A DNA stretch of 62,105 bases from an uncultured Flavobacteriales bacterium (GTDB lineage: Bacteria > Bacteroidota > Bacteroidia > Flavobacteriales_D > Sanyastnellaceae). The notes under the pieces were generated by a model. It was not told the origin of the DNA. It saw nothing but the letters and a program-made list of their open reading frames with translations, and did not search any database. Below are positions 31,757 to 58,562 of the stretch, piece after piece. The DNA lies in assembly GCA_937881575.1 (NCBI GenBank), contig CALGEI010000054.1, positions 1 to 62,105 of the forward strand, read 5' to 3'. A program made the translations under genes and the position numbers. Position 1 is the stretch's first letter. Each line of letters begins with the position of its first letter.

Positions 31757-31762
31757 TTTCTC

Positions 31763-33220: not shown

Positions 33221-34488
33221 TGCTCTATCATCTGTTCACCTATCTGGATCATATTTGGGACCTTCCCGGTGCCGGTTTGTTTCAATTTATTTCTTTCCGG
33301 GCAGCCATGAGCTTGATGACATCGCTCGTCATCGGCATCCTATTCGGAAAGCGGATCATTGAGTGGCTTCAACTCCAGCAGGTGGGTGAAATCGTTCGGG
33401 ACTTAGGGTTGGAAGGTCAAATGAACAAACAAGGCACGCCTACCATGGGTGGCTTGATCATTCTCGCCGCCATCATCATCCCGACACTTTTATTTGCCGA
33501 CTTGTGCAACATCTACACTCAGATGATGCTGCTCGTGACCGTGTGGCTCGGCACCATCGGATTCATCGATGACTACATCAAGGTTTTCAAGAAAAACAAA
33601 GACGGACTTGCTGGCCGCTTCAAAATTATTGGTCAAGTTGGCGTTGGAATTATCGTCGGCGCCATCATGTGGTGGCATCCTGATGTCGTCGTGAAAGATC
33701 AAGCCGATCGGCAGTTCATCGGAGAAACCGTGAGCATGACAGCCACGGACGGTCAAACATTCGAAGTCTTTGACCCGAAGGGCGGTCGACCGATTTGGGA
33801 AGCCAAGAAATCCTCACAAACCACCGTCCCCTTTATCAAGGACAACAACTTCGACTACGCCTGGCTCATCGAATGGATGGGACCCAATGCCGCCGGTTGG
33901 GGCTGGATTTTCTTCATTCCGATCGTCATCTTAATCGTTACTGCGGTTTCAAATGGCGCCAACTTAACCGATGGCATTGACGGACTCGCGACGGGGACTA
34001 GCGCCATCGTAGGCCTCGGACTCGCCGTACTCGCTTACGTCAGTTCCAATGTCGTCATCGCAGATTACCTCAACATCGTTTACATCCCGTTGTCTGAAGA
34101 ACTCGTGGTCTTCATCGCCGCCTTTGTCGGTGGGTGCATCGCCTTTCTGTGGTACAACGCCTTCCCAGCGCAAGTGTTCATGGGTGACACAGGCAGCTTG
34201 GCGCTCGGAGGCATCATCGCTGCATTTGCCATCGCCATTCGAAAAGAACTGTTGCTACCGATTCTATGCGGCATTTTTCTGATTGAGAATCTGTCCGTCG
34301 TGATGCAAGTTGCTTGGTTTCGGCACACCCGAAAGAAATACGGGGAAGGCCGCCGAGTTTTCCTCATGGCTCCTCTGCATCATCATTACCAAAAGTTGAG
34401 CATTCCAGAATCCAAGATCACGGCGCGCTTCTGGATTGTCGGCATTCTGCTGGCCGTCATCACCATCGTCACCCTAAAAGTTCGCTAA
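33220..34488 (+). CDS. mraY: Phospho-MurNAc-pentapeptide translocase MraY
   Basis: A 422-aa integral membrane enzyme with about ten helices that moves phospho-MurNAc-pentapeptide to undecaprenyl phosphate, making lipid I. It has the conserved GTPTMGG loop (near residue 70), the FIDDY acidic pair (near 116), NLTDGIDGL, and the FMGDTGSL and HHHYQ motifs. A periplasmic insertion of about 60 residues (about 160-225) is longer than in proteobacterial MraY but is usual in Bacteroidota. Confidence 0.97.
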
Positions 34489-34494
34489 TTCGTC

Positions 34495-35931: not shown

Positions 35932-35933
35932 AA

Positions 35934-38355: not shown

Positions 38356-38361
38356 CATCCC

Positions 38362-39780
38362 ATGTTGCATTTGAAATCCACTCGAACCGTTTATTTCATT
38401 GGCATCGGCGGCATCGGAATGAGTGCCTTGGCGCGATATCTGAAACGAAAAGGAGGCCTTCATGTTGCCGGGTACGACCGCGTTGCTTCGCGCGTTACGG
38501 ACGCATTGATGGAGGAAGGAATCGCCGTCAACCACGACCATGATCGTCTCCCTGATTCCATTGCTGCTCTCCCCTCGGACTCCCTCTTGGTTGTTCGCAC
38601 CCCGGCCGTTCCTCTGGAGCATCCGCACCACCTCACTTTGGCAGAAAAAGGGGCGCGCATCATCAAGCGGAGCGAATTGCTCGGAGAAATTGCAGATGAA
38701 ACGCCTACCCTCGCTGTCGCCGGAACACATGGGAAAACAACGACTACTGCAATTTTAGCTCATCTGCTCGACGGATGTCCTGGAAAATGCAATGCGTTTT
38801 TGGGCGGAATCGCAACGGGCGTCAATTCCAATCTGTACTTGCATGAGAACGCCGCTTGGAACGTCGTAGAAGCCGATGAGTTTGACCGCAGCTTCTTGCA
38901 CTTGCATCCTGCGTATGCGGTGATCACGAGCTTAGACGCTGATCACTTGGACATTTATGGGGATGAGGAAACCTTTCGTGAAGCGTTTCAATTGTTTGCT
39001 CAACAAGTGCAAAAAAGAATCCTCATCCACGCTGATGTGCATTGGCCAGAGGAGGATGTCGATCGGTACGGAGTCGTTTCGAATCGAGAAGAAGCCGCAC
39101 TCTTGACCTATGCGGCTGTTCACCCCCAAGTCATCGCCGGAAGCTGGACTGCGGACGTCAAATTGGATGGGCTGTGGATGGAGCAAATGGAATTCCCCAT
39201 GCCCGGAATCCACAACATTTCCAACGCATTGGCTGCTCTAGCATTGGCTCACCGCAGCGGAGCGCCCATGGAAATCTGTCGACAACGGATGCGAACCTTC
39301 CAGGGAATCCAGCGGCGATTCTCTTACCAAATCCGAGAAGAACGCGGAGTCTTTATTGATGATTATGCACACCACCCCACGGAATTAAAAGCCGCCATTG
39401 AAACCGCGCGCACCCAACATCCAGGCAAAGCCATAACGGGCATTTTTCAGCCCCACTTATTCAGCCGGACACGCGACCACTTGATGGAGTTCGCCTCTGT
39501 TCTGAGCACTTTGGATCATCTTATCCTGCTCCCTGTTTACGCCGCAAGAGAAATACCCATTCCTGGAATCGATTCACAACGGCTGTTTGAAAACATCCCG
39601 AACCCCACCAAACATCTCATTGATTCAGAGCGGATATTCGATTGCTTGAAAGCGCATCCACCTGAAGTGCTGATGACATTGGGAGCCGGAGACATCGACC
39701 GGTCTGTTGCCCCATTGAAACAGTGGCTTCTGGAGGACTTGAACCGATTCAAACAAACGAAGACAACGCCAGCACCATGA
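38362..39780 (+). CDS. murC: UDP-N-acetylmuramate--L-alanine ligase MurC
   Basis: A 472-aa ligase that attaches L-Ala to UDP-MurNAc, the first stem-peptide step. It has the N-terminal GIGGIGMSALA dinucleotide-like loop, the ATP loop AGTHGKTTT (near residue 118), EADEFDRSF, and the DDYAHHPTE block. No D-Ala ligase is fused to it. Its stop codon overlaps the ftsQ start (ATGA). Confidence 0.96.
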   Translation: MLHLKSTRTVYFIGIGGIGMSALARYLKRKGGLHVAGYDRVASRVTDALMEEGIAVNHDHDRLPDSIAALPSDSLLVVRTPAVPLEHPHHLTLAEKGARIIKRSELLGEIADETPTLAVAGTHGKTTTTAILAHLLDGCPGKCNAFLGGIATGVNSNLYLHENAAWNVVEADEFDRSFLHLHPAYAVITSLDADHLDIYGDEETFREAFQLFAQQVQKRILIHADVHWPEEDVDRYGVVSNREEAALLTYAAVHPQVIAGSWTADVKLDGLWMEQMEFPMPGIHNISNALAALALAHRSGAPMEICRQRMRTFQGIQRRFSYQIREERGVFIDDYAHHPTELKAAIETARTQHPGKAITGIFQPHLFSRTRDHLMEFASVLSTLDHLILLPVYAAREIPIPGIDSQRLFENIPNPTKHLIDSERIFDCLKAHPPEVLMTLGAGDIDRSVAPLKQWLLEDLNRFKQTKTTPAP

Positions 39781-40508
39781 TTCAACGCCTCCTGCCCATC
39801 GCTCTAACCGTCCTGCTTCTCGGGGCCACCGGAGCTTTGGTTGGATTTGCTTTGAGTGAAGAAGCCGAAATAGTTTACTCTGGATTGGACGTTGAAGTCG
39901 AAGAAGTCAAAGGCATGTTTTTTGTCGACGCCGCAGGGGTGCGAGATGCCATTCTTCAACACGATAGCATTGCCGGATCTTGGGTTCAAGCAGTCTCCCT
40001 TCAGGACGTCGAAACCTGGATTCAATCCATTCCCGCCGTTGATGACATTCAAGTATATCCTGGATTGGATCGTGTGCTCCATGTGCGCGTCTCTCAAAAA
40101 GAGCCGGTCGCACGTCTCCACAAGGGATCCGATCAGGACGATGTTTACATGGACACGAACGGCGACCCTCTCCCCTTATCCCCCTATTTCACAGCACGGG
40201 TTCCCATCATCCACGCCGCATCGATGGACCAGGCTCAAGAAGCTTTTGCACTGATCCAATCCACGTGCAAACACCCCATTTGGTCCGCATTCATCGACCA
40301 AGTTGAAGTAGGGGTCAACGGCGAACTCGAAATCGTACCCCGAATCGGAGGTGCCCGTGTAGCCCTAGGGGACACCTCCAATCTACAGACCAAATTGAAC
40401 AACCTATTGACCTTTTATCGAGAGCAAATTCGAAGAGGCAATTTGAACGAGTACAAACGCATCAACTTGGCCTTTGCCGGTCAAGTCGTAGCCCAACGCT
40501 ATTACTAA
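39777..40508 (+). CDS. ftsQ: Cell division protein FtsQ
   Basis: A 243-aa bitopic division protein with one N-terminal membrane helix (about residues 3-24), a POTRA-like region (about 35-100, with DIQVYPGLDRVLHVRVSQK at its end) and a beta-rich FtsQ domain. It scaffolds FtsL/DivIC at the septum. Sequence identity in this family is low, and the call relies on topology plus position between murC and ftsA. ATG at 39777 overlaps the murC stop. Confidence 0.9.
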   Translation: MIQRLLPIALTVLLLGATGALVGFALSEEAEIVYSGLDVEVEEVKGMFFVDAAGVRDAILQHDSIAGSWVQAVSLQDVETWIQSIPAVDDIQVYPGLDRVLHVRVSQKEPVARLHKGSDQDDVYMDTNGDPLPLSPYFTARVPIIHAASMDQAQEAFALIQSTCKHPIWSAFIDQVEVGVNGELEIVPRIGGARVALGDTSNLQTKLNNLLTFYREQIRRGNLNEYKRINLAFAGQVVAQRYY

Positions 40509-40530
40509 GTCAACGCAACTCACCCAAAGA

Positions 40531-41820
40531 ATGGAAATGGATCAACAAGCCCACAACGACGAATTGGTCGTCGGTCTCGATATCGGAACAACCAAGATTG
40601 CGTGTTTCGTCGGCCGCAGGAACGAGCACGGTAAAATTGAAATTCTGGGATACGGCAAAAGTGAATCGGTCGGCGTTTCACGCGGTGTCGTGGCCAACAT
40701 CGAACGGACTGTGGAGTCCATCCGAAAAGCCATCGACGAAGCAGAACGCACTTCAGGTGTCGCCATTGAAGTCGTCAACGTCGGCATAGCGGGGCAGCAC
40801 ATCAAAAGCCAACAGACGCGTGGCCAGCGCACCCGGGATGACTTGGAATCAGAAATCAGCAACGAGGACATCCAGGCATTGATTCAAGACATGTACAAGC
40901 AGGTGATGCAACCGGGCGAAGAAATTCTGCACGTATTGCCACAAGAGTACACGGTCGACAACGAACAAGGCATTAAAGAGCCTGTAGGCATGAGCGGCAT
41001 TCGATTGGAAGCCAACTTCCACCTCATTATCGGTCAGATTGCAGCCATTCGCAACATCTACCGCTGCATTCAAAAAGCCAACCTCACGGTGGATCAATTG
41101 ATTTTAGAGCCTCTTGCCTCTGCTGCAGCGGTGCTAAGCGAAGAGGAAAAAGAAGCCGGCGTGGCTCTGGTTGACATTGGTGGTGGTACCACGGACATTG
41201 CCATTTTTCAAGATGGGATCATCCGGCACACGGCAGTCATTCCTTTCGGAGGCAATGTATTGACTGAGGACATCCGTCAAGGGTGCCTCATCATGAAAAA
41301 GCAGGCAGAGCAACTCAAGCAACGCTTTGGATCCGCCATTTCAACGGAAATGAAAGACAATGAAATCGTATGCATCCCAGGACTTCAGGGGCGCAATGCA
41401 CGGGAGATCAGCTTGAAAAACCTAGCCGCGATCATCGAAGCGCGCATGACTGAAATCATCGAGCATGTGCACTTTGAAATCCGCAATTCAGGATTTGCCG
41501 ATCAGTTGATTGGTGGCGTCGTACTGACCGGTGGCGGATCGCAATTGCGTCATGTGACCCAACTTTTCCAATACGTGACCGGATTGGACTGCCGAGTAGG
41601 CTATCCAAGCGAGCATTTGGCTGAAGCTCCGGACGCACATGCTACAGCGCCAAGTTTCGCCACGGGCGTTGGTCTCGTCATCAAAGGCTACGACCGATTG
41701 GCTCCTAAAAATGACTCTGTAAAGGCAGAAGACATTCGCAAAGACGCTGAGAAATCACAGCGTATTCGTCTCATCGACAAGCTCAAGAACTACTTCGTTG
41801 AAGAGGAAGAGGAAGATTGA
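40531..41820 (+). CDS. ftsA: Cell division protein FtsA
   Basis: A 429-aa actin-fold ATPase that tethers FtsZ to the membrane. It has the phosphate-1 loop VGLDIGTTK (near residue 13), the SHS2/1C insertion (about 85-165), the phosphate-2 block VDIGGGTTDI (near 215) and the adenosine block GVVLTGGGS (near 330). The C-terminus ends in a basic amphipathic segment (IRLIDKLKNYF) followed by a run of acids, the expected membrane-targeting helix. It is 45 bases upstream of ftsZ. Confidence 0.97.
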   Translation: MEMDQQAHNDELVVGLDIGTTKIACFVGRRNEHGKIEILGYGKSESVGVSRGVVANIERTVESIRKAIDEAERTSGVAIEVVNVGIAGQHIKSQQTRGQRTRDDLESEISNEDIQALIQDMYKQVMQPGEEILHVLPQEYTVDNEQGIKEPVGMSGIRLEANFHLIIGQIAAIRNIYRCIQKANLTVDQLILEPLASAAAVLSEEEKEAGVALVDIGGGTTDIAIFQDGIIRHTAVIPFGGNVLTEDIRQGCLIMKKQAEQLKQRFGSAISTEMKDNEIVCIPGLQGRNAREISLKNLAAIIEARMTEIIEHVHFEIRNSGFADQLIGGVVLTGGGSQLRHVTQLFQYVTGLDCRVGYPSEHLAEAPDAHATAPSFATGVGLVIKGYDRLAPKNDSVKAEDIRKDAEKSQRIRLIDKLKNYFVEEEEED

Positions 41821-41865
41821 TTCTTCTCATTGTAAACACTATCTCATTCCCTGAATTCTCCATTC

Positions 41866-43620
41866 ATGAACGATTACAACAATTCATCAGATTCAAAGCC
41901 TGCGTTGCATGCTCCCATTAAAGTCATTGGTGTCGGAGGTGGCGGATCCAACGCTGTGAATACCATGTTCAACCGCGGCATCACCGGGGTCGATTTCATC
42001 GTTTGCAACACCGACGCACAAGCATTGGACGCCAGTCCAGTCCCGATTAAGATTCAACTCGGAGCGACACTGACCCGAGGGCAAGGCGCTGGATCCTTAC
42101 CAGAAGTAGGACGCAATGCCGCCATCGAATCTTTGGATGACGTCAAAGAACTGATCGGAGCGGATACCAGCATGGTGTTCATCACTGCAGGCATGGGCGG
42201 TGGTACAGGCACGGGAGCTGCACCTGTGATCGCACAGGCTGCGCGTGACATGAACATCCTCACGGTGGGAATCGTCACCGTTCCCTTCCTTTTTGAAGGA
42301 CGCCGGCGAACGGAGCAAGCCAATATCGGACTCGCTGAAATGCGCGATGCTGTCGACACCTTACTGATTATCCGCAATGATAAATTGCGTGAATTGTATG
42401 GGAATCTGACCATTCGAAAGGCCTTTGCCAATGCGGATGAAATCTTATGTACCGCTGCCAAAGGCATTGCTGAAGTGATCACATTGACTGGAGAAATCAA
42501 TGTGGACATGAACGACGTGAATACCGTCATGCGCAATTCGGGGCGCGCAATCATGGGATCGGGCATGGCTTCTGGAGAAGGCCGAGCGAGTCTGGCCGTC
42601 AGTGAAGCATTGGAATCCCCTTTGCTCAATGATTGCGACATAACAGGCGCCAATTTTGTCCTGCTCAACATTACGTTCGGCACAGAAGAAATTCTGATGG
42701 ATGAAATCATGGAGATCACCGATATCATTCAAGAATCGGCTGGCCAATCTGCCGAAGTCATTTGGGGATATGGCGTGGATCAATCACTCGAAGATGATTT
42801 GTGTGTAACGGTCATTGCTACCGGTTTTAAAGGCCAAGACCTCGATGGCGCATCACATGCCATGGCGCCCAAAAAAATCATGCTACTCGATGAGGAGCGT
42901 GAAGTCAAAAAGCCAGTGCAACCCGTTCAACAGCGAATGGACGATGCGGCTGTAGATGCACCTTACTTGCTCTCCGCTGAGCCCACAAGTGCGATTCAGG
43001 ATTCGCCTGCGCCGGAATCAACACCAGTAGATTCAATCGAAGCAAGCCATTCGTCCGAGATCGAGTCCGATTCAGATCTTCATTTCAAATTGCTCAAGCC
43101 AAACGAAATAGACGACGAATCCGCACCGGCTGTCGCACCTGCTCCTGGCAACGACACCCCGGAAATCACTGTTTACACGCTCGACAGTGACCCGCTGCCA
43201 TTGACATCAGATCTGCCCGATTTGGAAGGAATCCAATTCCAAGAGAAACAAGAGGAGCTCAAAACGCCTCAAGTGACAAACAACACCCCGCTCTCATCAG
43301 CAGGAAACGGACGCGATTCACAGGAAGCTCACCAATCCTCAAGGCCTTCTTTTTCGTCACCATCGGATGTAACGAAAACGCCGACCTCACGGACATCGCG
43401 CATTCAACAATTCACGCGAAAACTGAAGACGCCCGGTGGACTGGCCGATTTGGAATCTGAACCTGCTTACAAGCGACGTCATGTTGTACTGGACGACATC
43501 GACCATTCTTCGGCATCCCAGGTGAGTCGACTCAATCTGAGCACCGAAATTGATGACGAGGGTGAAAGCCACATTCAATTGAGAAACGACAACCCTTTTT
43601 TACACGATAACGTCGATTGA
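41866..43620 (+). CDS. ftsZ: Cell division GTPase FtsZ with long C-terminal linker
   Basis: Tubulin-like GTPase that builds the division ring. It is 584 aa: GTPase core to about residue 320 with GGGGSNAV and the tubulin signature GGGTGTGAAP (near 105), then a ~240-aa Pro/Ser/acid-rich low-complexity linker and a conserved C-terminal peptide ending NPFLHDNVD. The linker is long compared with E. coli FtsZ (383 aa in total), but long tails are usual in Flavobacteriia. The GTPase core is intact. Confidence 0.97.
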   Translation: MNDYNNSSDSKPALHAPIKVIGVGGGGSNAVNTMFNRGITGVDFIVCNTDAQALDASPVPIKIQLGATLTRGQGAGSLPEVGRNAAIESLDDVKELIGADTSMVFITAGMGGGTGTGAAPVIAQAARDMNILTVGIVTVPFLFEGRRRTEQANIGLAEMRDAVDTLLIIRNDKLRELYGNLTIRKAFANADEILCTAAKGIAEVITLTGEINVDMNDVNTVMRNSGRAIMGSGMASGEGRASLAVSEALESPLLNDCDITGANFVLLNITFGTEEILMDEIMEITDIIQESAGQSAEVIWGYGVDQSLEDDLCVTVIATGFKGQDLDGASHAMAPKKIMLLDEEREVKKPVQPVQQRMDDAAVDAPYLLSAEPTSAIQDSPAPESTPVDSIEASHSSEIESDSDLHFKLLKPNEIDDESAPAVAPAPGNDTPEITVYTLDSDPLPLTSDLPDLEGIQFQEKQEELKTPQVTNNTPLSSAGNGRDSQEAHQSSRPSFSSPSDVTKTPTSRTSRIQQFTRKLKTPGGLADLESEPAYKRRHVVLDDIDHSSASQVSRLNLSTEIDDEGESHIQLRNDNPFLHDNVD

Positions 43621-48164: not shown

Positions 48165-50012
48165 TTAAGGGCAGTCCAAGTTGAAGTTGGCCAAAAGAAT
48201 CAGCAAATCAAAGATGTTCACGTAGCCATCACCATTGATGTCATGCGGGCAGGGGTCCTCCTCTGACACTCCAATGCAAAGCGAAAGGACATCATCCCAA
48301 AAAGTACCCGGACCGCACTGATCGGAATTCAAATAGCATCCGAAATCGCAACTCCCATCGTCATTCAATGCGCTGGAATCGTAGTTACACGCCACTTCGT
48401 AGGTACAGCCCGCCGCTACATCCGGACAGCCCGGAGCAAATGGCATGAACAATGCTCCACCCTCCATCACGATGATGTGTTCGTCGATTGGCAAATCATA
48501 AAGTGCATCCACGTTTCCAGAGGGCCACGCCACAACGACCGAATCAATCAAAGTGGCACTACCCAAACCGAAGTGTTCCCAAGCACTGTTTTGCCCCAAG
48601 TAGCTTTCCCCTGCGAATCGCATATGGTACTGGGACATCCCTCCTGCGTGAACATAAATCTTGGCCCCGATGCCATCAAAATTACTCGCAACTCCTTCTG
48701 TTCCGATTTTAATCCAATGATTCCCATTGGGGGTGCCCTCGAGAATCTGAGCATACTCCCCTACGCGGTGCGAGACCAAATCTGGGAATCCATCCAAGTT
48801 GTAGTCCCCAACTGCCGTGGCAAATGACAACACATTGCTCGTGGGAAAATCTCCCACAGCCTCAGTGAAATTACCGGCATCGTTGTAAAATAGTCGGTCG
48901 GGGTGATCCGTATAAATGTCCATTACATCCGGATAGTCCGTGAAAACACTATAGCCTGTCGCGACATGCAGGTCTTCGTAACCGTTGTTATCGACATCCA
49001 ACCAATTCGCCCCCCAACAGACATCATTGACCTGCACACTATCATTGGAGGTATTGCCCGCTTCTAAACCAAAAAAAGATCCATTGTTGCTCAAAAGCCA
49101 ATTTCCATCATCAGCAAATGCCGTCAGGTAAATATCTTGAAATCCATTGTGATCAAAATCGGCGACCGAACCCGACATGCAATTGATCATGATATCAAGT
49201 CCGTAGTTCGCCGCACTTTCTTGAAAAGTGATCATGGCATTGGGCACTTGCTGCTCATAGAATTGATTGGCATAGATCGTTCGATCTCGGATGATGTGCA
49301 AATCCAGCAGGTCATCCTCATTGAAGTCCACCCATACACTTTGAAAGCTCTGGATTCCGAATTCATCCATCCCCTCTTCAATTGTTACTTCTTCAAAAAA
49401 GGTGTGTTCCGTTGCTTCTCCGGCTAAATTTCGATAGAGCTCATTGAACGCATCGGCATCAATCGCTGAGCTGTAATTGGTGATGTGTAGGTCCAAGAAA
49501 CCATCCGCATCATAGTCGCCAAAAGCAGCGCCATAACTCTTACTCGGATCCTGGTCCAGTCCAGAAGTAGCAGATACATCGGTGAACGTGAGATCCCCAT
49601 TGTTGCGATACAATCGATTCGGGGCCAATCGAAATCCCACAAACAAATCCCGATCACCATCGTTGTCTATATCTCCCCAAAGCACCATTTTCGCTTCATG
49701 ACCGTAATCTGGAAAATCCAATTCCAACGGGATGAATCCGGTTCCGGTGCCTTCAAAAAAGTGTATATCGCCCTCGTAATCCGCGAATGTGAGATCATCG
49801 ATGTAATCACCCGTAAAGTCAACAAAGCTCACTCCAGCTCCCAAATACCCGCCGAAATGGCCGGTCTCCAATTCAATGGTATTGCTCACATCCACCAGCT
49901 GTCCCACACATAATTTCGGAACACCAAACACACCCGTCCAAATCAAGGCGAACAAGGTCAGCCAAGAGGCTCGCCTTTGGACAGACTGATTGGAGTGGCG
50001 TTGCACGAACAT
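48165..50012 (-). CDS. FG-GAP/ASPIC secreted protein with single EF-hand C-terminal module (paralogue 1)
   Basis: About 615 aa. The start at 50012 gives a signal peptide ending near CVGQL. The body holds FG-GAP/VCBS-type beta-propeller repeats (GDIDNDGDRDLF, GDYDADGFLDLH, GDYNLDGFPDLV) and an ASPIC/UnbV domain (GIGAKIYVHAGG, YLGQNSAWEHFGLG), the CRTAC1-like layout. The C-terminus has three short modules: a DDGSC cysteine unit, a CGPGTFWDDVLSLC unit, and a cysteine-bracketed EF-hand loop (DINGDGYVNIFD) followed by DLLILLANF. No classical T9SS tail. It is 62 bases downstream of paralogue 2. Confidence 0.85.
   Translation of the reverse strand: MFVQRHSNQSVQRRASWLTLFALIWTGVFGVPKLCVGQLVDVSNTIELETGHFGGYLGAGVSFVDFTGDYIDDLTFADYEGDIHFFEGTGTGFIPLELDFPDYGHEAKMVLWGDIDNDGDRDLFVGFRLAPNRLYRNNGDLTFTDVSATSGLDQDPSKSYGAAFGDYDADGFLDLHITNYSSAIDADAFNELYRNLAGEATEHTFFEEVTIEEGMDEFGIQSFQSVWVDFNEDDLLDLHIIRDRTIYANQFYEQQVPNAMITFQESAANYGLDIMINCMSGSVADFDHNGFQDIYLTAFADDGNWLLSNNGSFFGLEAGNTSNDSVQVNDVCWGANWLDVDNNGYEDLHVATGYSVFTDYPDVMDIYTDHPDRLFYNDAGNFTEAVGDFPTSNVLSFATAVGDYNLDGFPDLVSHRVGEYAQILEGTPNGNHWIKIGTEGVASNFDGIGAKIYVHAGGMSQYHMRFAGESYLGQNSAWEHFGLGSATLIDSVVVAWPSGNVDALYDLPIDEHIIVMEGGALFMPFAPGCPDVAAGCTYEVACNYDSSALNDDGSCDFGCYLNSDQCGPGTFWDDVLSLCIGVSEEDPCPHDINGDGYVNIFDLLILLANFNLDCP
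48168..48251 (-). other. C-terminal half-dockerin-like module, paralogue 1
   Basis: The last 28 residues. They start with Cys-Pro, carry the 12-residue calcium-loop pattern D-I-N-G-D-G-Y-V-N-I-F-D (ligands at 1, 3, 5 and 12, a dockerin-type Asp at 12), then a leucine-rich helix, and end with Cys-Pro. Only one loop is present, where a true dockerin has two. Confidence 0.7.
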
Positions 50013-50074
50013 CTTGCTGAACGTTAAGGATTGAATGAATGAATGAGGATGGATTGAATTCAACTTGGCGCATG

Positions 50075-51901
50075 TTATTCGGGACAAGGCACGTTGAAAT
50101 CGGACAAGAACCACAGTAAATCATCCGTATTCACCAACCCGTCAAGGTTGATGTCCGCGGGGCAGTCATTTGTCGTTGCCTGCACGCATTGTCCTAACAT
50201 TTCATCCCATTCCGTTCCCGGACCACAACTCTGGCTGCCATCGAAACAGTTGAAATCACATGATCCATCCTCCTCGAGCGCTTGCGGTTCATAATTGCAA
50301 GCTTGGGCATACGTGCAGCCGAGACACCCCGTGGGAAGACCTGGACAAGGATCCTCTGCAATGGACGCACCCTCTATCAAAACCAAAGATTGCAGCCCAT
50401 TCACATCGAAATACTGGTCCAGCACACCCGAAGGCCAGAGAATCTCCAGCGAATCCGCCGCTTGCTGATTTCCTAAGCCGAAGATTTCCCAACGGCTATT
50501 TTGTCCTAGATAATTTTCACCGCAAAACGTCATGCGGTAGGTGACTTCACCATCCACATACACCGAAATTTTCGCCCCAATGCCGTCTCGATTGCTTTCC
50601 ACGCCTTGAAGCATGATTTTGATCCACTTGTTGCTATTGGGCGTGCTTTTTAAAACCTGAGCGTACTCGCCCAAAGTGTGAGAGACTAAATCCGGAAAAC
50701 CATCCCCATTGTAATCACCAACGGCACTAGCGAATGACAATTGATTGGTTTGAAGAACATTGGATGTGTCCTTTTCAAACACCCCTTCATTGTTCCAGAA
50801 AAAATGATTCGGAACATCGGGGTATTGCATAAATACTTGAGGATACTGGGAGTATTCGCTGTAACCCGTGGCCACGTGCAAATCATCCCAGCCATCGTTG
50901 TCTGCATCCAACCAATTTGCGGCCCAGGAGGTCAAATGAACTTCTGTACTATCCCCTGATTCAACGACATGCGGTGTAAAAACACCTCCCGAATTGTCCA
51001 GCAAAAAATTCCCTTCAAATAACCCGGCAGCCAGATACAAATCCAAATCGTGGTCTCGGTCGTAATCCGCTATGGACGTGGACATGCAATTGATGGCAAG
51101 ATCCAATCCCATTGCGTGGGCCTCATTGCTGAATTCTCCGTTTTCTTGCCGATAGTATTTGTTCTCGAAGCATAAGCGGTCCTGGATCACATGCAGGTCC
51201 AGCTCATTGTTCTCATCAAAATCAACCCAGTGTCCCTGAAAGCTGTTGTCCATATTCTCGCCGATTGCGGACTGAAGGGTAACGTCTTCAAAAATCCCAT
51301 CTCCAAGATTGTGATAGAGTTCATTGTGCGGGTAATCCTGTCCAATCACATAATTGGCAACGAACAAGTCCAACAAACCGTCCTGATCATAATCTCCGAA
51401 ATTCGCGCCGTAACTCCGTTGATTGGATTGAGTAATGCCGCAAACTTCACTGATGTCATCGAACATCAAGCCGCCTAAATTGCGGTACAGGCGATTCGAT
51501 GCCAGACGGTATGTGACAAATAGGTCTTGGTCTCCATCATTGTCAATGTCCGCCCATAATATGCCTTTCGCTTCATTGGCGTACTCCGGGAGATTCAAGT
51601 AAATTTCATTGAATCCCGTGCCATCACCCAAATAAAACTTGAGCATACCACCGTAATGGGCAAAACTCAAATCATCCAATCCATCGTTGTTGAAATCAGC
51701 CATGCTGATGCCTGCCCCCCAATTGCCTCCCGTGTGGTCTGTGTAAAGATTCACTTCATTGCTGACATCCACGAACTGCGCTGAAACCAGGCACGGCCAG
51801 GAGGTCAATGCCGCGAAAACACCAAAAAAGATTGGCCCGCAGAATCTTTCGACTCCAAGCCACTCGCCAAAGGTTTTCGAAAAAAAAGAAGCATGAGCCA
51901 T
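50075..51901 (-). CDS. FG-GAP/ASPIC secreted protein with single EF-hand C-terminal module (paralogue 2)
   Basis: A 608-aa protein with a signal peptide (hydrophobic stretch about residues 22-40, cleavage near VSAQ) and the same domain order as its neighbours: FG-GAP repeats (ADFNNDGLDDLSF, ADIDNDGDQDLF, GDYDQDGLLDLF, GDYNGDGFPDLV), an ASPIC/UnbV domain (GIGAKISVYVDG, YLGQNSRWEIFGLG), a DDGSC-like unit (EEDGSCDF), a CGPGTEWDEMLGQC unit and the EF-hand loop DINLDGLVNTDD bracketed by cysteines. It is closest to paralogue 3 in the N-terminal half. Function unknown; probably surface-exposed or released. Confidence 0.85.
   Translation of the reverse strand: MAHASFFSKTFGEWLGVERFCGPIFFGVFAALTSWPCLVSAQFVDVSNEVNLYTDHTGGNWGAGISMADFNNDGLDDLSFAHYGGMLKFYLGDGTGFNEIYLNLPEYANEAKGILWADIDNDGDQDLFVTYRLASNRLYRNLGGLMFDDISEVCGITQSNQRSYGANFGDYDQDGLLDLFVANYVIGQDYPHNELYHNLGDGIFEDVTLQSAIGENMDNSFQGHWVDFDENNELDLHVIQDRLCFENKYYRQENGEFSNEAHAMGLDLAINCMSTSIADYDRDHDLDLYLAAGLFEGNFLLDNSGGVFTPHVVESGDSTEVHLTSWAANWLDADNDGWDDLHVATGYSEYSQYPQVFMQYPDVPNHFFWNNEGVFEKDTSNVLQTNQLSFASAVGDYNGDGFPDLVSHTLGEYAQVLKSTPNSNKWIKIMLQGVESNRDGIGAKISVYVDGEVTYRMTFCGENYLGQNSRWEIFGLGNQQAADSLEILWPSGVLDQYFDVNGLQSLVLIEGASIAEDPCPGLPTGCLGCTYAQACNYEPQALEEDGSCDFNCFDGSQSCGPGTEWDEMLGQCVQATTNDCPADINLDGLVNTDDLLWFLSDFNVPCPE
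50078..50164 (-). other. C-terminal half-dockerin-like module, paralogue 2
   Basis: The last 29 residues: Cys-Pro, the calcium loop D-I-N-L-D-G-L-V-N-T-D-D, a hydrophobic helix with DLLWFLSDF, and closing Cys-Pro-Glu. Same length and spacing as in the three neighbouring proteins. Confidence 0.7.
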
Positions 51902-52019
51902 GAACGAACAAATCAGAATGAATTGTTCAAATCATGCAGGTTCCTAAAAATACACAAAACAATTGACACATCCTACCCCTCCCTAACAGACCGTCTTGCG
52001 CGCTCAGACTCAGCAGATC

Positions 52020-53753
52020 CTACATGGGGCACAATGTTCCAAAAGAAAGCAGGAGCAATAATAAATCCTCTACCGTAACCAAATTATCACCATCGAGATC
52101 TGACGGGCAATTTTCAACGCACTGTTGAAGGTTTGGATTCCACATTGCTCCATCTCCACAAACGTTGGCAGCAAACCAACAGGAGAAATCGCAAGAACCA
52201 TCATCGACCAAGGCCAGCAAATCGAAATTGCACGCTTGGACATAGACACAACCTGAGCCGTTATCAGCGCACGTTTCGGCTGTCTCACCTTCTGTGAATG
52301 TTAGACTCAAATTCGACGGCACCTCATAATGCACATCCACTAGCCCCGATGACCATTCCACTCGAATCGAATCAATGGTGACAGCTTCGCCCAATCCAAA
52401 GTGCTCCCATCGACTATTCTGCCCCAGATAATTCTCTCCGCAATACGTTTCTCGATACAAGGGAACCCCTTCGATCCACAATTCCAATTTGGTTCCTACG
52501 CCATCGCGATTGCTTATCGTTCCGACTGGCAATATTTTGAGCCAATTCTGGCCATTTGGCGTGCCCTTCCATACCTGAGCCGTCTCGCCAATACGGTGTG
52601 AAACAAGATCCATAAAACCATCCCCATCAAAATCAGATGTAGCCGTTGCAAAACTGAGGATGGATGGAGACTGAAAAAATGCGATGTCCTCACTAAAAGT
52701 CCCTTCAGTATTCATCCACATTCCGTCAGGCTCATCTGCATTCTGAACCAACACTGCCGGAAAATCATTGTAAGCGGCGATCCCCGTCGTAACGTGTAAA
52801 TCCTCCCATCCATTGCAATCCGCATCAAACCATTGGCCAGACCAACACACTTCATTCATTACCAGCAGAGGCTCATCCAAAGCGACATACGATCCGTCTC
52901 CGTCATTTTCCAAGAAAACATTGCCCTCCAAACCACCACTTAAAAAAACATCCAAATCACCGTCCCGATCAAAATCACAGGGACTTGTGGACATGCAATT
53001 GATGGCGACATCCAAACCTATATCAGGAGCCACATCGACAAAGGTCAATTCAGCTTCATCCCCCATATTTCGATACAATAGGTTGGGATAAATAAAGCGG
53101 TCTCGAACAACATGCAAATCAAGCTTTCCATCCCGGTCCTGGTCCATCCACTGCCCCTGAAAACATTGAAGCAGATCGCCACCGACACCCAATTCTGATG
53201 TTACATTCTGAAATTGTCCTCCACCCAGATTTCGATACAATTCATTTCCAGGTAAATCTGACGCATACGAGTAGTTGGAAATAAACAAGTCCAACAACCC
53301 ATCATGATCAAAGTCTCCGAAACAGGCACCAAAGCTTCTTCGGTCATCTTGGGCAATGCCGCACGTTTCACTCACGTCTTGCATCACCATACCCCCCAGG
53401 TTCAGAAAGAACTTATTGGGCGCCAATCGATACGTCACCAACAAATCCTGGTCTCCATCATTGTCTACATCAGACCAAAGAATCCCTTTAGATTCCGCCT
53501 CAGGTAACGTCAAACCCAAATCAACCTCCTCGAAACCAACACCGTCACCGGCATAGAATCGCAACAAACCGTTGTGATGACCAAATGATAAATCATCTTT
53601 CCCATCCCCATTGAAATCAGCAAAACTCATTCCGGTTCCCAGGTAGCCTCCCGTATGGTCGGTAGGAATTACATACAAAGGCGTTACATCTTCCAGCTGT
53701 CCATTGCCTTGGACGCAAACGAACAGCATAAACACATACAGTAAACTTTTCAT
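52020..53753 (-). CDS. FG-GAP/ASPIC secreted protein with single EF-hand C-terminal module (paralogue 3)
   Basis: About 577 aa from ATG 53753, which gives the clean signal peptide MKSLLYVFMLFVCVQGNGQ. In-frame starts further upstream (53786, 53798, 53870) approach or enter the terminator of the preceding gene and are less likely. It has FG-GAP repeats (ADFNGDGKDDLSF, SDVDNDGDQDLL, GDFDHDGLLDLF, SDFDGDGFMDLV) and an ASPIC/UnbV domain (GVGTKLELWIEG, YLGQNSRWEHFGLG). A DDGSC unit, a CGDGAMWNPNLQQC unit and the loop DLDGDNLVTVED complete the C-terminus. It is 118 bases upstream of paralogue 2. Confidence 0.85.
   Translation of the reverse strand: MKSLLYVFMLFVCVQGNGQLEDVTPLYVIPTDHTGGYLGTGMSFADFNGDGKDDLSFGHHNGLLRFYAGDGVGFEEVDLGLTLPEAESKGILWSDVDNDGDQDLLVTYRLAPNKFFLNLGGMVMQDVSETCGIAQDDRRSFGACFGDFDHDGLLDLFISNYSYASDLPGNELYRNLGGGQFQNVTSELGVGGDLLQCFQGQWMDQDRDGKLDLHVVRDRFIYPNLLYRNMGDEAELTFVDVAPDIGLDVAINCMSTSPCDFDRDGDLDVFLSGGLEGNVFLENDGDGSYVALDEPLLVMNEVCWSGQWFDADCNGWEDLHVTTGIAAYNDFPAVLVQNADEPDGMWMNTEGTFSEDIAFFQSPSILSFATATSDFDGDGFMDLVSHRIGETAQVWKGTPNGQNWLKILPVGTISNRDGVGTKLELWIEGVPLYRETYCGENYLGQNSRWEHFGLGEAVTIDSIRVEWSSGLVDVHYEVPSNLSLTFTEGETAETCADNGSGCVYVQACNFDLLALVDDGSCDFSCWFAANVCGDGAMWNPNLQQCVENCPSDLDGDNLVTVEDLLLLLLSFGTLCPM
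52023..52109 (-). other. C-terminal half-dockerin-like module, paralogue 3
   Basis: The last 29 residues: Cys-Pro, the calcium loop D-L-D-G-D-N-L-V-T-V-E-D (the usual Gly at loop position 6 is Asn), a run of leucines, and FGTLCPM at the end. Confidence 0.7.
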
Positions 53754-53820
53754 CCCAAACGAATCGGGACACCCTGTGCACTTCATTTCCTGTCTCATCT
53801 TATCGAGAAGATACAACATT

Positions 53821-53858
53821 AAACAAAAAAAGGGGCTCAGCTTTCGCTGAGCCCCTTT
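53821..53858 (-). terminator. Rho-independent terminator downstream of the 1559-aa gene
   Basis: A perfect 13-base stem (AAAGGGGCTCAGC at 53829-53841 with GCTGAGCCCCTTT at 53846-53858, loop TTTC) is followed on the minus strand by a T-rich run. It lies 24 bases after the stop of the giant gene and separates it from the FG-GAP/ASPIC trio, which therefore needs its own promoter. Confidence 0.9.
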
Positions 53859-53882
53859 CGGAAAAATCATGTTAATCTCAGA

Positions 53883-56800
53883 TTACTCGCACACAGTACC
53901 GAACGCACCCAAGAACAGGAGCAAGTCAGCAGTCGTTACAGAGCCATCTTCGTTAATATCCGCAGGACAAGGGTTTGAAAGATCAAACTGACATGTACCA
54001 TCGTCATTTCCAGCTGCTGGATCATAATTCGACGCATCAGCATACGTACAACCAGCGCAATCATCAAAGATGCATTCTGAAAGATCTAAGATGTTTGCAG
54101 TCTCGTCATAGTTACAAGCACAAGCAATATCACATCCCTCGATGCAATTCTGTCCACCTGTAGAAATGTAAGCAGGACCGTAAAGCTCACCACCCGTGAC
54201 CACGCCACCGAAGATTCCAGCAACCGACCATGAAGGCTCATTGTTGAACGTATCATCGCCTGTAGTCAGGATGTAGCATCCATCTTCCAAGCAATATGTC
54301 TCTTGAGCAAAGCTACCAGAAGCCAATGAGGTTTCAATTACTACGTTGCCTTCCAAGTCCGTGATAAGGACGTTACATCCAGACCATCCGTCTCCGAATG
54401 AATCGTTCATGGTCACGACTACACAAGAGCCATAGCAGCAAGTTCCATCTTCAATGGTTGCAGTTTCGTCAAAATCACAAGCAGTCTCGTCCGTGCAACC
54501 CGCACAAGTCAGGTACTCACAAGTACCATTCTCATCCGTGGCTTCAACATCGTAGTTACAAGCGAAGTCATCCATACAGCCACAAGTCACGTCACCCAAT
54601 CCGAATGGATAAGACTCCGTTACTAAGCTTCCAGCTGCGCCTCCTTCAGCCAACGTGTTTGTGCCATCAGACACATACCAAGACTGCTCTTCAGACCAAA
54701 GGAACGCACCAGTGAAGTCATACGAATAGCAACCTGGATCCAAGCACAATACGTCTAGACCAAATTCAGCTCCGTCGAAGTTGTCTTCGTCAATGATGAA
54801 CATAGCATCGTCAATCGCACCGGCAGTAATGCTGTTACCGTCCGCATCGAATACTTCGTATCCACCAGTAGAACCGCTGTTACCACCTGTCCATCCGTCA
54901 CCGAATGAATCAGCCATCCAGATGATCAACGCAATTCCGTTAGGGTTAGCGTCACAAGCACATGAAGTGTACTCACAATCGTCAGCATCAATGTTAGCTT
55001 CTGGGTTGTAGTTGCAAGCAACATCAACGAAGCAACCATAAATAGCCTCTTCGCATTCCATCTCGATCTGATATGAACCGCCTCCGTCAAAGATGCCATC
55101 CAAATCATAACCTACATAGACGTAGTAAGTCAACGCGGGATCAGATACAAACTGAACTGCTGCATCATCTTGGTCGAAGAAACCACAAGTAGCAAAGCTA
55201 TTGTCGCTAATCGCAACACTGCCGTCAACTTGGAATACACAACCATAATCACCACAATCTGCAGTAGCTGAGCTATAAACGTGCATACGCGTGTCAATAA
55301 CAGAACCACACGTGTTGATCGTATGCAATTCACCTGTTCCAGCGAATGTGTACCAGACACCTTCATAAGCTGGGAAAGTCAATTCAGACGTTCCATCTTC
55401 AGCAGCCGTACCTGTGCTAGTACCACCAGTACCTGCATATGTAACACCTGCCAAGACTTCGTTTCCGTTGAAATAGATCGTTGCAGTTGCACCGTTCCAT
55501 CCATCACCAAATGAGTCAATGCCTTGGAATACGAAATCTCCTTCAGCCATGCCACAAGCCCACTGGCCTGAAGTCGCAGACCCTTCGAAAACGTTGCCGT
55601 CAGCATCCGTCAACACCCACGTGATTTCACTATCCCATGTACCACCTCCTACGATTACGTAACCCATGTTTTCGCCTTCGGCACAAGCACCACACTGCAC
55701 ATCAGGAAAACCTGTGCCGGTAGCACCACCCATCGAAGCTACTATAACCTCTCCACAAGGAAGGTCAGCAGCATTCTCACAGAGATCATTATCAGGAACT
55801 TCAGTATAGGTACAAGTACCGTCATCCTGGTTCGCTAATGCGTCATAGTTGTCAGCGTCCGCATCTGTGCAACCCAAGAAGATACCTTGAGTTGTGAATT
55901 CAAATTCACCACAAGTCTCAGCATCTGTTGTTCCAACAGCGAAGTAATAATCTGTGTTCGGCTCCAACGTGATGAAGGACTCAATTGAACCGGCACAAGT
56001 GCCTGTAAAGTTGCAACCTACATACGTCGTCAAAGCTTCACAATCACCACCTGCCAAATAAATGGTCAAGGTCAAATCCCCTGACGAGATGTTCGTTGCA
56101 TTGAAGTAGAACGTATCAAAGTCTACACCAGAAACAACATCCGTGCTGTTGAACGTGAACCAAACAGCATAGTTTGTTCCGCCGAAGCTAGGAATAGCCG
56201 TTGGAGACGCACAGCAGTTCGTTCCAGTAAACGTTACGTTATCAATTTGAGGCGTTGCATCAGCACAGAAATCATTGCTTGGGATATCATCACAAGCAGC
56301 ACATTCAACACTCAACAAGAACTCCGAGCCAGAACTGAATGCACTGTACTTCGAAACGTAGATGTAGTAGTCTTCACCAGTCGTGGCAATGAATGCTACG
56401 CTTGACATCAAACCACATGCATCGTCATTTCCAACAAGCAATTCCAATTCACCTTCGTCGTTGTACTGGAATACGTGCATCTTGGTATCACTGACTGGGT
56501 CAGCAAAACCAGAAGTAGATGTCGGCGTATCACATGTATTCGCAAAAACCTGTTGGTCTGAATCCGAATTGAACTCATACCAGACACCAGGAGTTGTGAT
56601 AGAAGTGCCTAGGAACAAGCCTGTTACATTTTCCTGATCCGATGCATTGGACAAGTTTCCTGTTGAAAGTGCTCCACAGAAAACAGCTTCAGCATCTGCA
56701 ATAGCATCATTCGATGGAGGGCAGATACAAGAACCATCATCAATCGTCACAGAAACATTGTAGTTAAAGCAACCTTCATCCATGCAACCCTCAAAATCAC

Positions 56801-58562
56801 AACCTCCAAGCAAGCCGAAGTCTATGAACCAACCGCCGCTAGGGAAACCGACTGGAGGAGGCAACACGCCGTAATAGTTCGACGCAACCTGATCACCATA
56901 TACCGTACCGAATTCGTCAGTTATAATAAGAGCGATTTCATTATCCGCTGTACCTCCACCGGAAGACAAAATGTAGCAGCCCAATGCAACGCAATGGAAA
57001 TCAGTTGCTACACCATTGATATACAAGTCGGCATCGTCCCAGTTTCCAGAAACAGAAGTCACTCCATCGTAGCTATCGATGTAGTATGAAGCTCCGTTCC
57101 AACCGTCACCTCCGAGGTCGTACATCTCGACATTCAAAACATTCGTGCCTGCTTCACAGTAAACGCAAGAACCTGGGTTCTCCTGGGTCGCAGTAGGGTC
57201 GAAGTTGGCAGCAGTCACGTCCATACAACCAATGCAACTGTAGTCACAAGAACCATCATCCAAGTTGGCTGTGTCCTCAAAATTACAGGCCAAGTCATCT
57301 GTGCAACCCGGGAATGCTGGCAAGCAGAAGTCGCTTGATTCGCTTGAACCAAATTGTGAACCAGAAGCGAGGGACGTTCCGTTCGCATCAGACACGCTGT
57401 ATGAACCATTACCATAAGAACAGCACATACCATCGCCGAATGAATCGTACATGGTAAACGTGTAGCATGTCTCATTCACACAGAAATCTCCACCTACTGA
57501 ACCGCCACTAGCGATCATCATGCCTTCAGCATCGACAAGATCCCAAGATGTTTCACCTGGATAGTTGTCTGGAGTGATGGAAATCGTAATCGCTTCAAAC
57601 GCACAAGACTCATCATCAATCTGCGCAGCAGGATCAAAGTTACAAGCCGTTGCATCTGTACAACCTACATACTGGCAAGAACCATCGTCCTCTGTTGCAA
57701 ACGGGTCAAAGTTTGACGCCGCAGAATCAACACAACCTGGGAAAGCACAAGCAGCTACCCAGTCAATAGGCGTGTAGCCTGATGACGCGCAAGAGCCAGA
57801 GCCGTCTGAGTCCATGACGATGTTCACAACACCGGTTGGAGACTCGATAAAGGTGCCAGAGATGTCCTGGTTACCCGCTACAGATGAGAATCCTGTTGAC
57901 CACAAGATGTTGGCCGTAGCCAAGTCCAATCCATCATACACATAGATTTGATCCCAGTAGTCCTCAATTTGACCAGAGTTGATCAACAAGAAGATGGATT
58001 GTCCCGCAGGAGCAACCGCGTAACCATAGGATACAAAGTTTTGGCTATTGCCATAGCAAAAGTTGCCAGCCCAATCGCATGAAGGAAACTCGCAAGAGCC
58101 ATCGTCTTCACCAGCATCCGGGTTGAAGTTGATTGCCTCAGCGTCAGTGCAACCTGGAATCAATTCGACACCAATGCAGAAGTCTGTTGATTCAGCTCCA
58201 CCAAAATCACCGCCTGAAGCGAGGACGTTGCCGTCTACATCAGTCAATGAATATGATCCATCACCCCAAGCGCAGCACATGCCATCATTGTACTGGTCAT
58301 ACATGGTCAATGTGTAACAAGCGTCTACTAAGCACACAACTGCTTCCGCAGTCGTCCCAGAGTAATCACCTGGAGCAGCGGATGCAATGACGTTTCCTGC
58401 GCCATCGGCAATATCCCAACTGGTTTCACTTGCATAGTTATCGAACACAAGTGACAAAGTCACTTCGTTGGCAGCACACTGCCCATAGGCCGCGGGTGCT
58501 GAGTAAAGATAAAGCGCGAACATCGCTACGATGCCACAACACTTTGTAAACGTGTTAAACAT
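53883..58562 (-). CDS. Giant secreted cysteine-rich repeat protein (1559 aa)
   Basis: A signal peptide (cleavage near AAYGQ, residue 28) starts a very acidic, cysteine-rich extracellular protein. It has twelve ~35-aa units of the pattern GCTDxxAxNFxxxAxxDDGSC, about six beta-domains with the MYDSFGDGMCC / DSFGDGWNG theme, a CUB-like region (about residues 155-270) and pre-peptidase-like beta-domains with GVWYEF or AVWFTF strands (about 630-950). It ends with the same Cys-bracketed EF-hand module as its three neighbours and has no type A T9SS tail. Paired cysteines suggest disulfide-stabilised units. Function unknown; a surface or matrix protein is plausible. Nothing in it suggests an enzyme. 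Confidence 0.88.
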   Translation of the reverse strand: MFNTFTKCCGIVAMFALYLYSAPAAYGQCAANEVTLSLVFDNYASETSWDIADGAGNVIASAAPGDYSGTTAEAVVCLVDACYTLTMYDQYNDGMCCAWGDGSYSLTDVDGNVLASGGDFGGAESTDFCIGVELIPGCTDAEAINFNPDAGEDDGSCEFPSCDWAGNFCYGNSQNFVSYGYAVAPAGQSIFLLINSGQIEDYWDQIYVYDGLDLATANILWSTGFSSVAGNQDISGTFIESPTGVVNIVMDSDGSGSCASSGYTPIDWVAACAFPGCVDSAASNFDPFATEDDGSCQYVGCTDATACNFDPAAQIDDESCAFEAITISITPDNYPGETSWDLVDAEGMMIASGGSVGGDFCVNETCYTFTMYDSFGDGMCCSYGNGSYSVSDANGTSLASGSQFGSSESSDFCLPAFPGCTDDLACNFEDTANLDDGSCDYSCIGCMDVTAANFDPTATQENPGSCVYCEAGTNVLNVEMYDLGGDGWNGASYYIDSYDGVTSVSGNWDDADLYINGVATDFHCVALGCYILSSGGGTADNEIALIITDEFGTVYGDQVASNYYGVLPPPVGFPSGGWFIDFGLLGGCDFEGCMDEGCFNYNVSVTIDDGSCICPPSNDAIADAEAVFCGALSTGNLSNASDQENVTGLFLGTSITTPGVWYEFNSDSDQQVFANTCDTPTSTSGFADPVSDTKMHVFQYNDEGELELLVGNDDACGLMSSVAFIATTGEDYYIYVSKYSAFSSGSEFLLSVECAACDDIPSNDFCADATPQIDNVTFTGTNCCASPTAIPSFGGTNYAVWFTFNSTDVVSGVDFDTFYFNATNISSGDLTLTIYLAGGDCEALTTYVGCNFTGTCAGSIESFITLEPNTDYYFAVGTTDAETCGEFEFTTQGIFLGCTDADADNYDALANQDDGTCTYTEVPDNDLCENAADLPCGEVIVASMGGATGTGFPDVQCGACAEGENMGYVIVGGGTWDSEITWVLTDADGNVFEGSATSGQWACGMAEGDFVFQGIDSFGDGWNGATATIYFNGNEVLAGVTYAGTGGTSTGTAAEDGTSELTFPAYEGVWYTFAGTGELHTINTCGSVIDTRMHVYSSATADCGDYGCVFQVDGSVAISDNSFATCGFFDQDDAAVQFVSDPALTYYVYVGYDLDGIFDGGGSYQIEMECEEAIYGCFVDVACNYNPEANIDADDCEYTSCACDANPNGIALIIWMADSFGDGWTGGNSGSTGGYEVFDADGNSITAGAIDDAMFIIDEDNFDGAEFGLDVLCLDPGCYSYDFTGAFLWSEEQSWYVSDGTNTLAEGGAAGSLVTESYPFGLGDVTCGCMDDFACNYDVEATDENGTCEYLTCAGCTDETACDFDETATIEDGTCCYGSCVVVTMNDSFGDGWSGCNVLITDLEGNVVIETSLASGSFAQETYCLEDGCYILTTGDDTFNNEPSWSVAGIFGGVVTGGELYGPAYISTGGQNCIEGCDIACACNYDETANILDLSECIFDDCAGCTYADASNYDPAAGNDDGTCQFDLSNPCPADINEDGSVTTADLLLFLGAFGTVCE
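53886..53969 (-). other. C-terminal half-dockerin-like module of the giant protein
   Basis: The last 28 residues: Cys-Pro, the calcium loop D-I-N-E-D-G-S-V-T-T-A-D, the helix DLLLFLGAF, and closing GTVCE. It aligns without gaps to the loops of the FG-GAP/ASPIC paralogues, although the rest of the proteins differ. Confidence 0.7.
54000..58180 (-). repeat. Twelve DDGSC-type cysteine units within the giant protein
   Basis: Twelve copies of a GC(T/M/V)D..A.N(F/Y)....A..DDG(S/T)C unit are distributed through the coding sequence, some adjacent and others separated by beta-domains. They are diverged at the DNA level, so this is an old protein repeat rather than a recent tandem duplication. Four copies depart from the DDG(S/T)C end (for example IDDESC, IDADDC). 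Confidence 0.85.

Follow-up and report, generated by a model that had tools for sequence, protein, structure and literature searches.

The window, by which we mean the whole 62,105-nucleotide stretch of DNA analysed here, is one whole contig of a 2.59-Mb genome assembled in 213 contigs and judged to be 99% complete. Between positions 48165 and 58562, it carries four consecutive ORFs, all on the minus strand, whose products share their C-terminal end. Three of them (48165..50114, 50075..51901 and 52020..53870) encode FG-GAP/ASPIC proteins of 649, 608 and 616 aa, assigned as such by Pfam matches, and these paralogues exhibit 48-50% mutual identity. The 649 aa are counted from a GTG start that runs into the neighbouring ORF, and an ATG around position 50012 (MFVQRH...) is by our reading a likelier start. 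The fourth ORF (53883..58562) encodes a cysteine-rich secreted-type protein of 1559 aa without known family, to which neither Pfam (E ≤ 0.001) nor NCBIfam (E ≤ 0.01) assigned a family. Elsewhere in the window, positions 28048-43620 are occupied by an ordinary dcw (division and cell wall) cluster with matches to RsmH, an FtsI-like PBP, MurE, MraY, MurD, MurG, MurC and FtsZ.

In the order given, the four ORFs end in DPCPHDINGDGYVNIFDLLILLANFNLDCP, NDCPADINLDGLVNTDDLLWFLSDFNVPCPE, ENCPSDLDGDNLVTVEDLLLLLLSFGTLCPM and NPCPADINEDGSVTTADLLLFLGAFGTVCE. A first-pass annotation had described a cysteine-bracketed EF-hand unit at the end of all four proteins, and the ORF translations confirm it: the unit lies at 48171..48257 in the 649-aa protein, 50084..50170 in the 608-aa protein, 52029..52109 in the 616-aa protein and 53886..53975 in the 1559-aa protein, each time on the minus strand. 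All four tails are single units, not tandem ones.

Copies of the module in the same genome and in a sister genus

A search of the genome with the tail of the 1559-aa protein (E ≤ 10) returned 52 places within 42 ORFs, which indicates that the shared tail is not a matter of chance. The module that had been noticed in four adjacent proteins is thus present in all four, but it is by no means limited to them. The match ends no more than five residues from the end of the ORF in 37 of the 42 ORFs; in one more, on contig C208, a weaker second repeat extends by eye to the C-terminus, so that 38 of the 42 copies are terminal. Two copies are clearly non-terminal. One (C178:41781, E 3.6e-7), in the ORF C178:40968-42704 (L064), comes after an LTD-type region and is followed by 271 aa that contain an esterase-like domain, and the other (C190:3482, E 0.007) directly follows the signal peptide in the ORF C190:3395-4090 (L086); no type A C-terminal domain (CTD) of the type IX secretion system (T9SS) was seen in either protein. 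The two remaining matches, at C118:14685 (E 0.25) and C42:55310 (E 0.85), may be due to chance. Inspected by eye, the ORF C42:54284-55594 (L092) displays repeated HAEG-type motifs that resemble the head of a trimeric adhesin, and its signal peptide is followed by a weak dockerin-like stretch.

The closed genome G020, a single 4.1-Mb contig from another genus of the window's family, contains at least 93 tail matches at E ≤ 0.01 (150 of 187 candidates scored). They form at least 62 groups, 31 of them single and 31 tandem, and four residues at most follow the last match in 57 of the 62 groups. Among the other five, three show by eye a degenerate repeat or a short extension at the end, one runs on for another 46 residues and the frame of one is broken. 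The description of the module as a single unit therefore holds for the tails of the window, but the tandem form is also common. Likewise, occurrence that is mostly internal or in tandem had been set by the first-pass annotation against its own proposal; the copies of the window's genome are mostly terminal, with two clear internal ones, and half of those of G020 are tandem, which in part speaks against this proposal.

Sequence and predicted structure of the unit

The tails follow the calcium-loop pattern D-x-[ND]-x-D-x6-D and then a helix. In the 56 single units compared, Asp occupies loop positions 1 and 12 without exception and position 5 in 50 cases, and large hydrophobic residues are found in all 56 at helix positions 13, 14, 16, 17 and 20. 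In tandem tails, these hydrophobic residues are almost always kept in both repeats as well, and the conservation in all single units suggests that the hydrophobic face of a lone unit should be left unpaired. At loop position 22, Cys is present in 33 of 38 first repeats of the tandem form, while Thr is the commonest residue both in single units and in second repeats; single units thus resemble second repeats. Both bracketing cysteines are found in 76 of 94 terminal units (94 of 95 were tabulated, one without a recognisable loop being dropped), which makes them usual, not obligatory, and the last two cysteines are spaced by 26 in 71 of the 88 counted. We also considered a disulphide coupling between the bracketing cysteines, but over the 94 terminal units the presence of one was not significantly linked to that of the other (Fisher p 0.29).

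The unit is a relative of dockerins. When the tail profile was compared with solved structures, the top match was the dockerin 2y3n_B (E 1.2e-11), followed by other dockerins, and calmodulins were also matched, from E 1.4e-4. Curated models recover this kinship with low scores. Among the four whole proteins of the window, the NCBIfam model dockerin_GC matches only the 608-aa protein (15.8 bits for a cut-off of 29) and the Pfam model Dockerin_1 gives one match (13.8 bits for a cut-off of 22.9); the isolated tail of the 1559-aa protein reaches 24.2 and 17.5 bits, respectively, both below cut-off. Of 32 tails from the same genome, 23 match dockerin_GC, 17 Dockerin_1 and up to 15 EF-hand models at E ≤ 1. 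As single units score below the curated cut-offs, automatic annotation likely misses them.

Structure prediction for the tandem form (pLDDT 91, pTM 0.77) yielded a model whose best solved match is again 2y3n_B, with a TM of 0.81 and a Foldseek E of 2.1e-3, Foldseek giving no match at 1e-3 or better. VIA-align superimposed the two with a Z of 10.3 and an rmsd of 1.5 over 59 aligned residues, and the next among the folds listed, 2ozn_B (Z 7.7), is also a dockerin complex. The single form, modelled from the tail of the 1559-aa protein, was predicted to consist of a loop leading into a single helix (mean pLDDT 84.7, pTM 0.53). The predicted fold is accordingly that of a dockerin for the tandem form only.

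Cargo proteins and their cysteine-rich repeats

The 42 tailed proteins of the window's genome are diverse. Pfam identifies FG-GAP/ASPIC domains in five of them, LTD in three, M12 reprolysins and LVIVD in two each, and endonuclease I and an M43 peptidase in one each; NCBIfam adds ExeM-type nuclease models (three), choice-of-anchor B (two) and choice-of-anchor L (one). This fits a cargo of exported enzymes and of surface proteins with a varying anchor.

A cysteine-rich repeat of the type CTYxxACNYDxxAxxDDGSC occurs upstream of tails in the window and at other loci of the genome (L061-L092). In the 608-aa protein it takes the form GCTY..ACNY..EEDGSC at residues 528-548 (50258..50320, minus strand), and the 1559-aa protein is full of such DDGSC repeats, for which a Pfam scan of the protein returned no family. 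Within 430 aa of the tail, DDGSC repeats are present in 23 of 38 dockerin-tailed proteins of the genome and in 37 of 62 from G020, versus 6 of 70 proteins with a type A CTD in the window's genome (Fisher p 1.3e-8 for the comparison within this genome).

Taxonomic distribution

A survey of 299 genomes of the order with the tail profile (E ≤ 0.001, at most 27 candidates scored per genome) gave matches in 130 of them. By our own tally of this survey, the window's family accounts for 111 matching genomes out of 114, 80 of which have at least 27 matches each; in the rest of the order, 19 of 185 genomes match, with one to three matches each. The family, which is known mainly from environmental DNA, includes two tail-poor genera, g7 (nine genomes with 1-2 matches) and g16 (seven genomes with 0-1).

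Across the phylum (392 genomes, E ≤ 1e-4, at most 21 candidates scored per genome), only seven genomes match, and two of these belong to the window's family. Four others have one internal dockerin-like match followed by 229-311 residues. The remaining one, from family f9 (L204, genome G008), has a true single, terminal and cysteine-bracketed tail outside the window's family; f9 genomes with a match in the order survey have one to three each. Outside the order survey, 70 genomes were picked and 50 of them searched, of which 8 match. Five are Flavobacteriales MAGs with 33-61 matches each: casp40-mb.41, MED692, UBA1531 and UBA974 (39-61 matches each) share match coordinates with the family genomes G207, G178, G170 and G287, and the fifth, Cryomorphaceae bacterium ASP10-05a, has 33. 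The others are two Poribacteria (2 and 8 matches) and one Solibacter (1 match), with a best E of 4.6e-5. The tail hence marks one family of Flavobacteriales, and the rest of the order and phylum is almost devoid of it.

The tail stands in the place of the type A CTD

The first-pass annotation had stated that the tailed proteins lack the CTDs of type A and B that T9SS cargo normally carries, and this is borne out for all 42 tailed proteins of the genome, none of which matches the type A (TIGR04183) or type B (TIGR04131) model at E ≤ 0.01. Type A CTDs are nonetheless abundant in this genome, with 70 matches over cut-off and 81 at a lax E ≤ 1. Only the 70 were taken as type A, since the lax threshold also gave matches in 13 of 14 control genomes, of which one matched over cut-off. 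None of the 42 tailed ORFs overlaps any of the 81 matches, and none of the 62 in G020 overlaps a type A match (150 of 232 candidates scored).

Homologues of the FG-GAP/ASPIC proteins are informative in this respect. Their C-termini were read in 28 of 79 loci, five of which are cut or masked at the end (L105, L107, L110, L111 and L163). Thirteen of the loci read are of the family type, and in the 11 complete ones the module is always terminal. Eight come from other records labelled Bacteroidota, five of them complete: four end in a TIGR04183 domain over cut-off (25.9-48.3 bits) and the fifth in a match below cut-off (19.4 bits), and no tail match was found in the genomes of these five homologues. 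The seven loci from other phyla all stop, by eye, after the ASPIC domain.

A similar exchange is visible within the family. We compared dockerin ectodomains with the 70 over-cut-off type A proteins out of 81 (for 30 of which the upstream sequence was limited to about 500 aa), leaving out the four non-terminal ORFs of the window's genome and, from the remaining 100, one whose ectodomain did not exceed 60 aa. Once DDGSC repeats were masked, 57 of these 99 ectodomains had a relative with a type A CTD in the window's genome (BLAST, E ≤ 1e-8), many of these pairs having only one domain in common. In five pairs, the alignment spans 70% or more of each of the two ectodomains: G020_772436/C116:6199 (54% over 840, with a borderline type A match of 23.5 bits for a cut-off of 23), G020_4071339/C178:8821 (57% over 683), G020_1413250/C195:36395 (40% over 653), C7:3682/C10:3775 (33% over 467) and C178:44296/C178:42665 (41% over 417). 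The last pair consists of adjacent genes of one genome, the former with a dockerin tail and the latter with a type A CTD. The point at which a shared ectodomain gives way to differing tails can be seen in the C-terminal alignments of the C178, C7 and G020_772436 pairs; for G020_1413250 and G020_2627560, the last blocks of the alignments show only non-aligning tails. Homologues of tailed proteins thus carry a type A CTD in the place of the tail in the same genome, in sister genera and in other Bacteroidota.

The secretion apparatus itself is present. SprA is encoded on contig C62 of the window's genome and was found in 110 of 114 genomes of the family, including 50 of 50 high-quality ones. Recognition of the tail by the T9SS, which the first-pass annotation had envisaged, is compatible with this co-occurrence, but the T9SS is widespread in these bacteria and its presence is therefore weak, non-discriminating evidence. 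As for export, a hydrophobic N-terminal segment was detected in 32 of 34 tailed proteins of the genome and 55 of 55 of G020, but also in 19 of 29 other ORFs of the window, so that this signal-peptide heuristic discriminates poorly. Such a segment followed by [AGS]Q was found in 28 of 34, 48 of 55 and 9 of 29, respectively.

Cohesins are rare and scattered in the family

The first-pass annotation had alternatively proposed a surface cohesin-like partner. For the organism studied here, this finds no support: the Pfam cohesin model (PF00963) has no match in its genome at E ≤ 1, though divergent cohesins may escape this search, and none in its genus at E ≤ 0.1, a threshold at which 19 of the 114 family genomes match. 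Five of the 114, from genera g4, g5, g8 and g9, have a cohesin over cut-off. The cohesin matches do not track the number of tails, and cohesins are also found in the tail-poor genera g4 and g7. One genome of genus g5, G049, encodes a 668-aa scaffoldin-like ORF (L229) combining a signal peptide, cohesin-like repeats and a tandem tail; Pfam recognises cohesin in two stretches (8.3e-14) and we read four repeats. In genome G039 of genus g4, a protein with a cohesin match (L228) has by eye a type A-like CTD at its end. A profile of the G049 repeats, searched in 51 genomes, matched G049 itself four times and otherwise gave just one weak match, in a broken frame of G044. With so few and scattered matches, a classical cohesin system is not the general partner of the tails, unless the cohesins have diverged beyond recognition. 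A cohesin-like partner is possible in a few other genera of the family.

Discussion

The presence of a type A CTD in the same place on homologues, together with the lack of a cohesin match in the window's genome and genus, suggests that the tail behaves like an interchangeable anchor or sorting tag. The terminal position of the unit, the absence of overlap with type A CTDs and the existence of type A-tailed homologues support the proposal of the first-pass annotation, which saw in it a distinct tag for attachment, sorting or oligomerisation. Dockerin homology, the predicted dockerin fold of the tandem form, terminal placement, CTD exchange and near-restriction to one family lead us to read the tail as a tag for docking or sorting that derives from dockerins and can be exchanged for the type A CTD; we consider the chances of this reading to be about even. 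A calcium-folded docking tag originating from dockerins would have come to occupy the place of the type A CTD on part of the exported proteins of the family. These proteins would be exported by the Sec pathway, as their N-termini suggest, and the terminal EF-hand unit would then fold around calcium; the bracketing cysteines probably form a disulphide that closes it. The exposed Leu/Phe face of its helix could bind a receptor of the envelope other than a recognisable cohesin, and the protein would finally be delivered to, or retained at, the cell surface, most likely via the T9SS route.

Most CTDs of T9SS cargo fall in two major families, types A and B, although several families exist (PMC12618676, 2025, in excerpt). 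It is tempting, if rather speculative, to regard the dockerin-derived EF-hand unit as a T9SS sorting signal of a third kind, which some shuttle or receptor would read, and it is plausible that the T9SS recognises the tail directly. What speaks against the T9SS itself as the reader of the tail is that two copies are clearly non-terminal, that a receptor is missing and that some relatives bear cohesins, and the non-terminal copies and cohesin-bearing relatives argue for a more general docking module.

Such a module could function as in cellulosomes, with the tails binding divergent or rare cohesins on a surface scaffold and serving for assembly without being a secretion signal. The dockerin fold of the tandem form agrees with this, as do the architecture of the G049 protein, the five genomes with a cohesin over cut-off, the type A-like end of L228 and the fact that dockerins can be non-terminal, like two copies in the window's genome. 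Moreover, a scaffoldin of Cloacimonadota that carries cohesins and a CTD has been proposed to collect dockerin enzymes (PMC8542988, in the part available). We nevertheless regard cellulosome-like docking as unlikely, given that the window's genome and genus have no cohesin match, that the G049 repeats are confined to G049 and a weak place in G044 among 51 genomes, and that cohesins also turn up in tail-poor genera.

Two further explanations concern the unit by itself. The unpaired hydrophobic helix face could allow single half-dockerins to pair in trans, producing dimers or mixed assemblies. The strict conservation of the hydrophobic positions and the resemblance of single units to second repeats would be explained in this way, but tandem tails, which would be satisfied internally, are found on the same kinds of proteins, the same face could equally bind a receptor, and half-dockerins of Ruminococcus flavefaciens are called functional alone in an excerpt of PMC8063739; oligomerisation thus seems improbable to us. 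Less probable still, and in our opinion quite remote, is that the unit is a partnerless C-terminal plug, locked by calcium and a disulphide, that protects against proteases. Its small size, its usual two cysteines, its extreme C-terminal position and its association with DDGSC repeats would suit a stability cap, but many unrelated proteins carry the unit where a sorting domain would be, a lone hydrophobic helix face calls for a partner, and the cysteines are not obligatory.

Returning to the interchangeable tag, its distribution and the replacement of CTDs suggest that proteins are sorted or anchored at the cell surface in a way that has not been described. It concerns a whole family of Flavobacteriales with about 40-60 dockerin-tailed proteins per counted genome (42 ORFs in the window's genome, 62 groups in G020). 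If the T9SS does read the tail, dozens of cargo proteins per genome have exchanged the Ig-like type A CTD for a docking fold that depends on calcium. The occurrence of the tail in the place of a T9SS CTD makes it possible to ask which other features can act as signals for sorting to the surface and what recognises them, and the natural tail-exchange pairs are ready-made constructs for such tests.

In the open-licence literature searched, as far as its texts were accessible, we found no description of a terminal tail of this kind in Bacteroidota. The term 'GC-type dockerin' had no match there, no paper combined 'choice-of-anchor' with dockerin, and no dockerin appeared among the matches listed for Flavobacteriales or Cryomorphaceae. 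An excerpt of a study of rumen Bacteroidetes reports that no cohesins or dockerins were found in them, as in other Bacteroidetes genomes (PMC5831590).

The best NCBIfam match of the tails is NF041540 (dockerin_GC, 'GC-type dockerin domain-anchored protein', 67 positions), the tandem form having its FG-C and Cys features; the name of the model implies an anchor too. In contrast, the model was built for a double unit, and the tails of the window are single and below its cut-off. GC-type dockerins are common in Planctomycetota. The type I/II dockerins of cellulosomes (Dockerin_1; 2y3n_B from Pseudobacteroides cellulosolvens) share the calcium-loop pattern with the tails and the fold with their tandem form, but the system described here differs by a genome without cohesin, single units, bracketing cysteines and non-cellulolytic cargo. 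The half-dockerins of R. flavefaciens are likewise non-duplicated and said to be functional, but are part of a cohesin-based cellulosome (PMC8063739, same excerpt). The dockerin/cohesin system of Cloacimonadota (PMC8542988) and the 'planctosome' of freshwater Planctomycetes (PMC6461901) are both non-cellulosic according to the parts available, with C-terminal dockerins on signal-peptide proteases. Their LTD and M12 peptidase parts recur among the cargo of the window's genome; unlike the latter, both systems have cohesin scaffolds.

Two of the dockerin-tailed proteins match the choice-of-anchor family TIGR04312 and one matches NF038133, families named for their changing C-terminal anchors. Finally, the type A CTD itself (TIGR04183) is an Ig-like beta-sandwich of about 70 residues (PMC12618676, in excerpt), whereas the tail is one EF-hand unit of about 28; both are terminal, occupy the same position on homologues and are found on many cargo proteins per genome.
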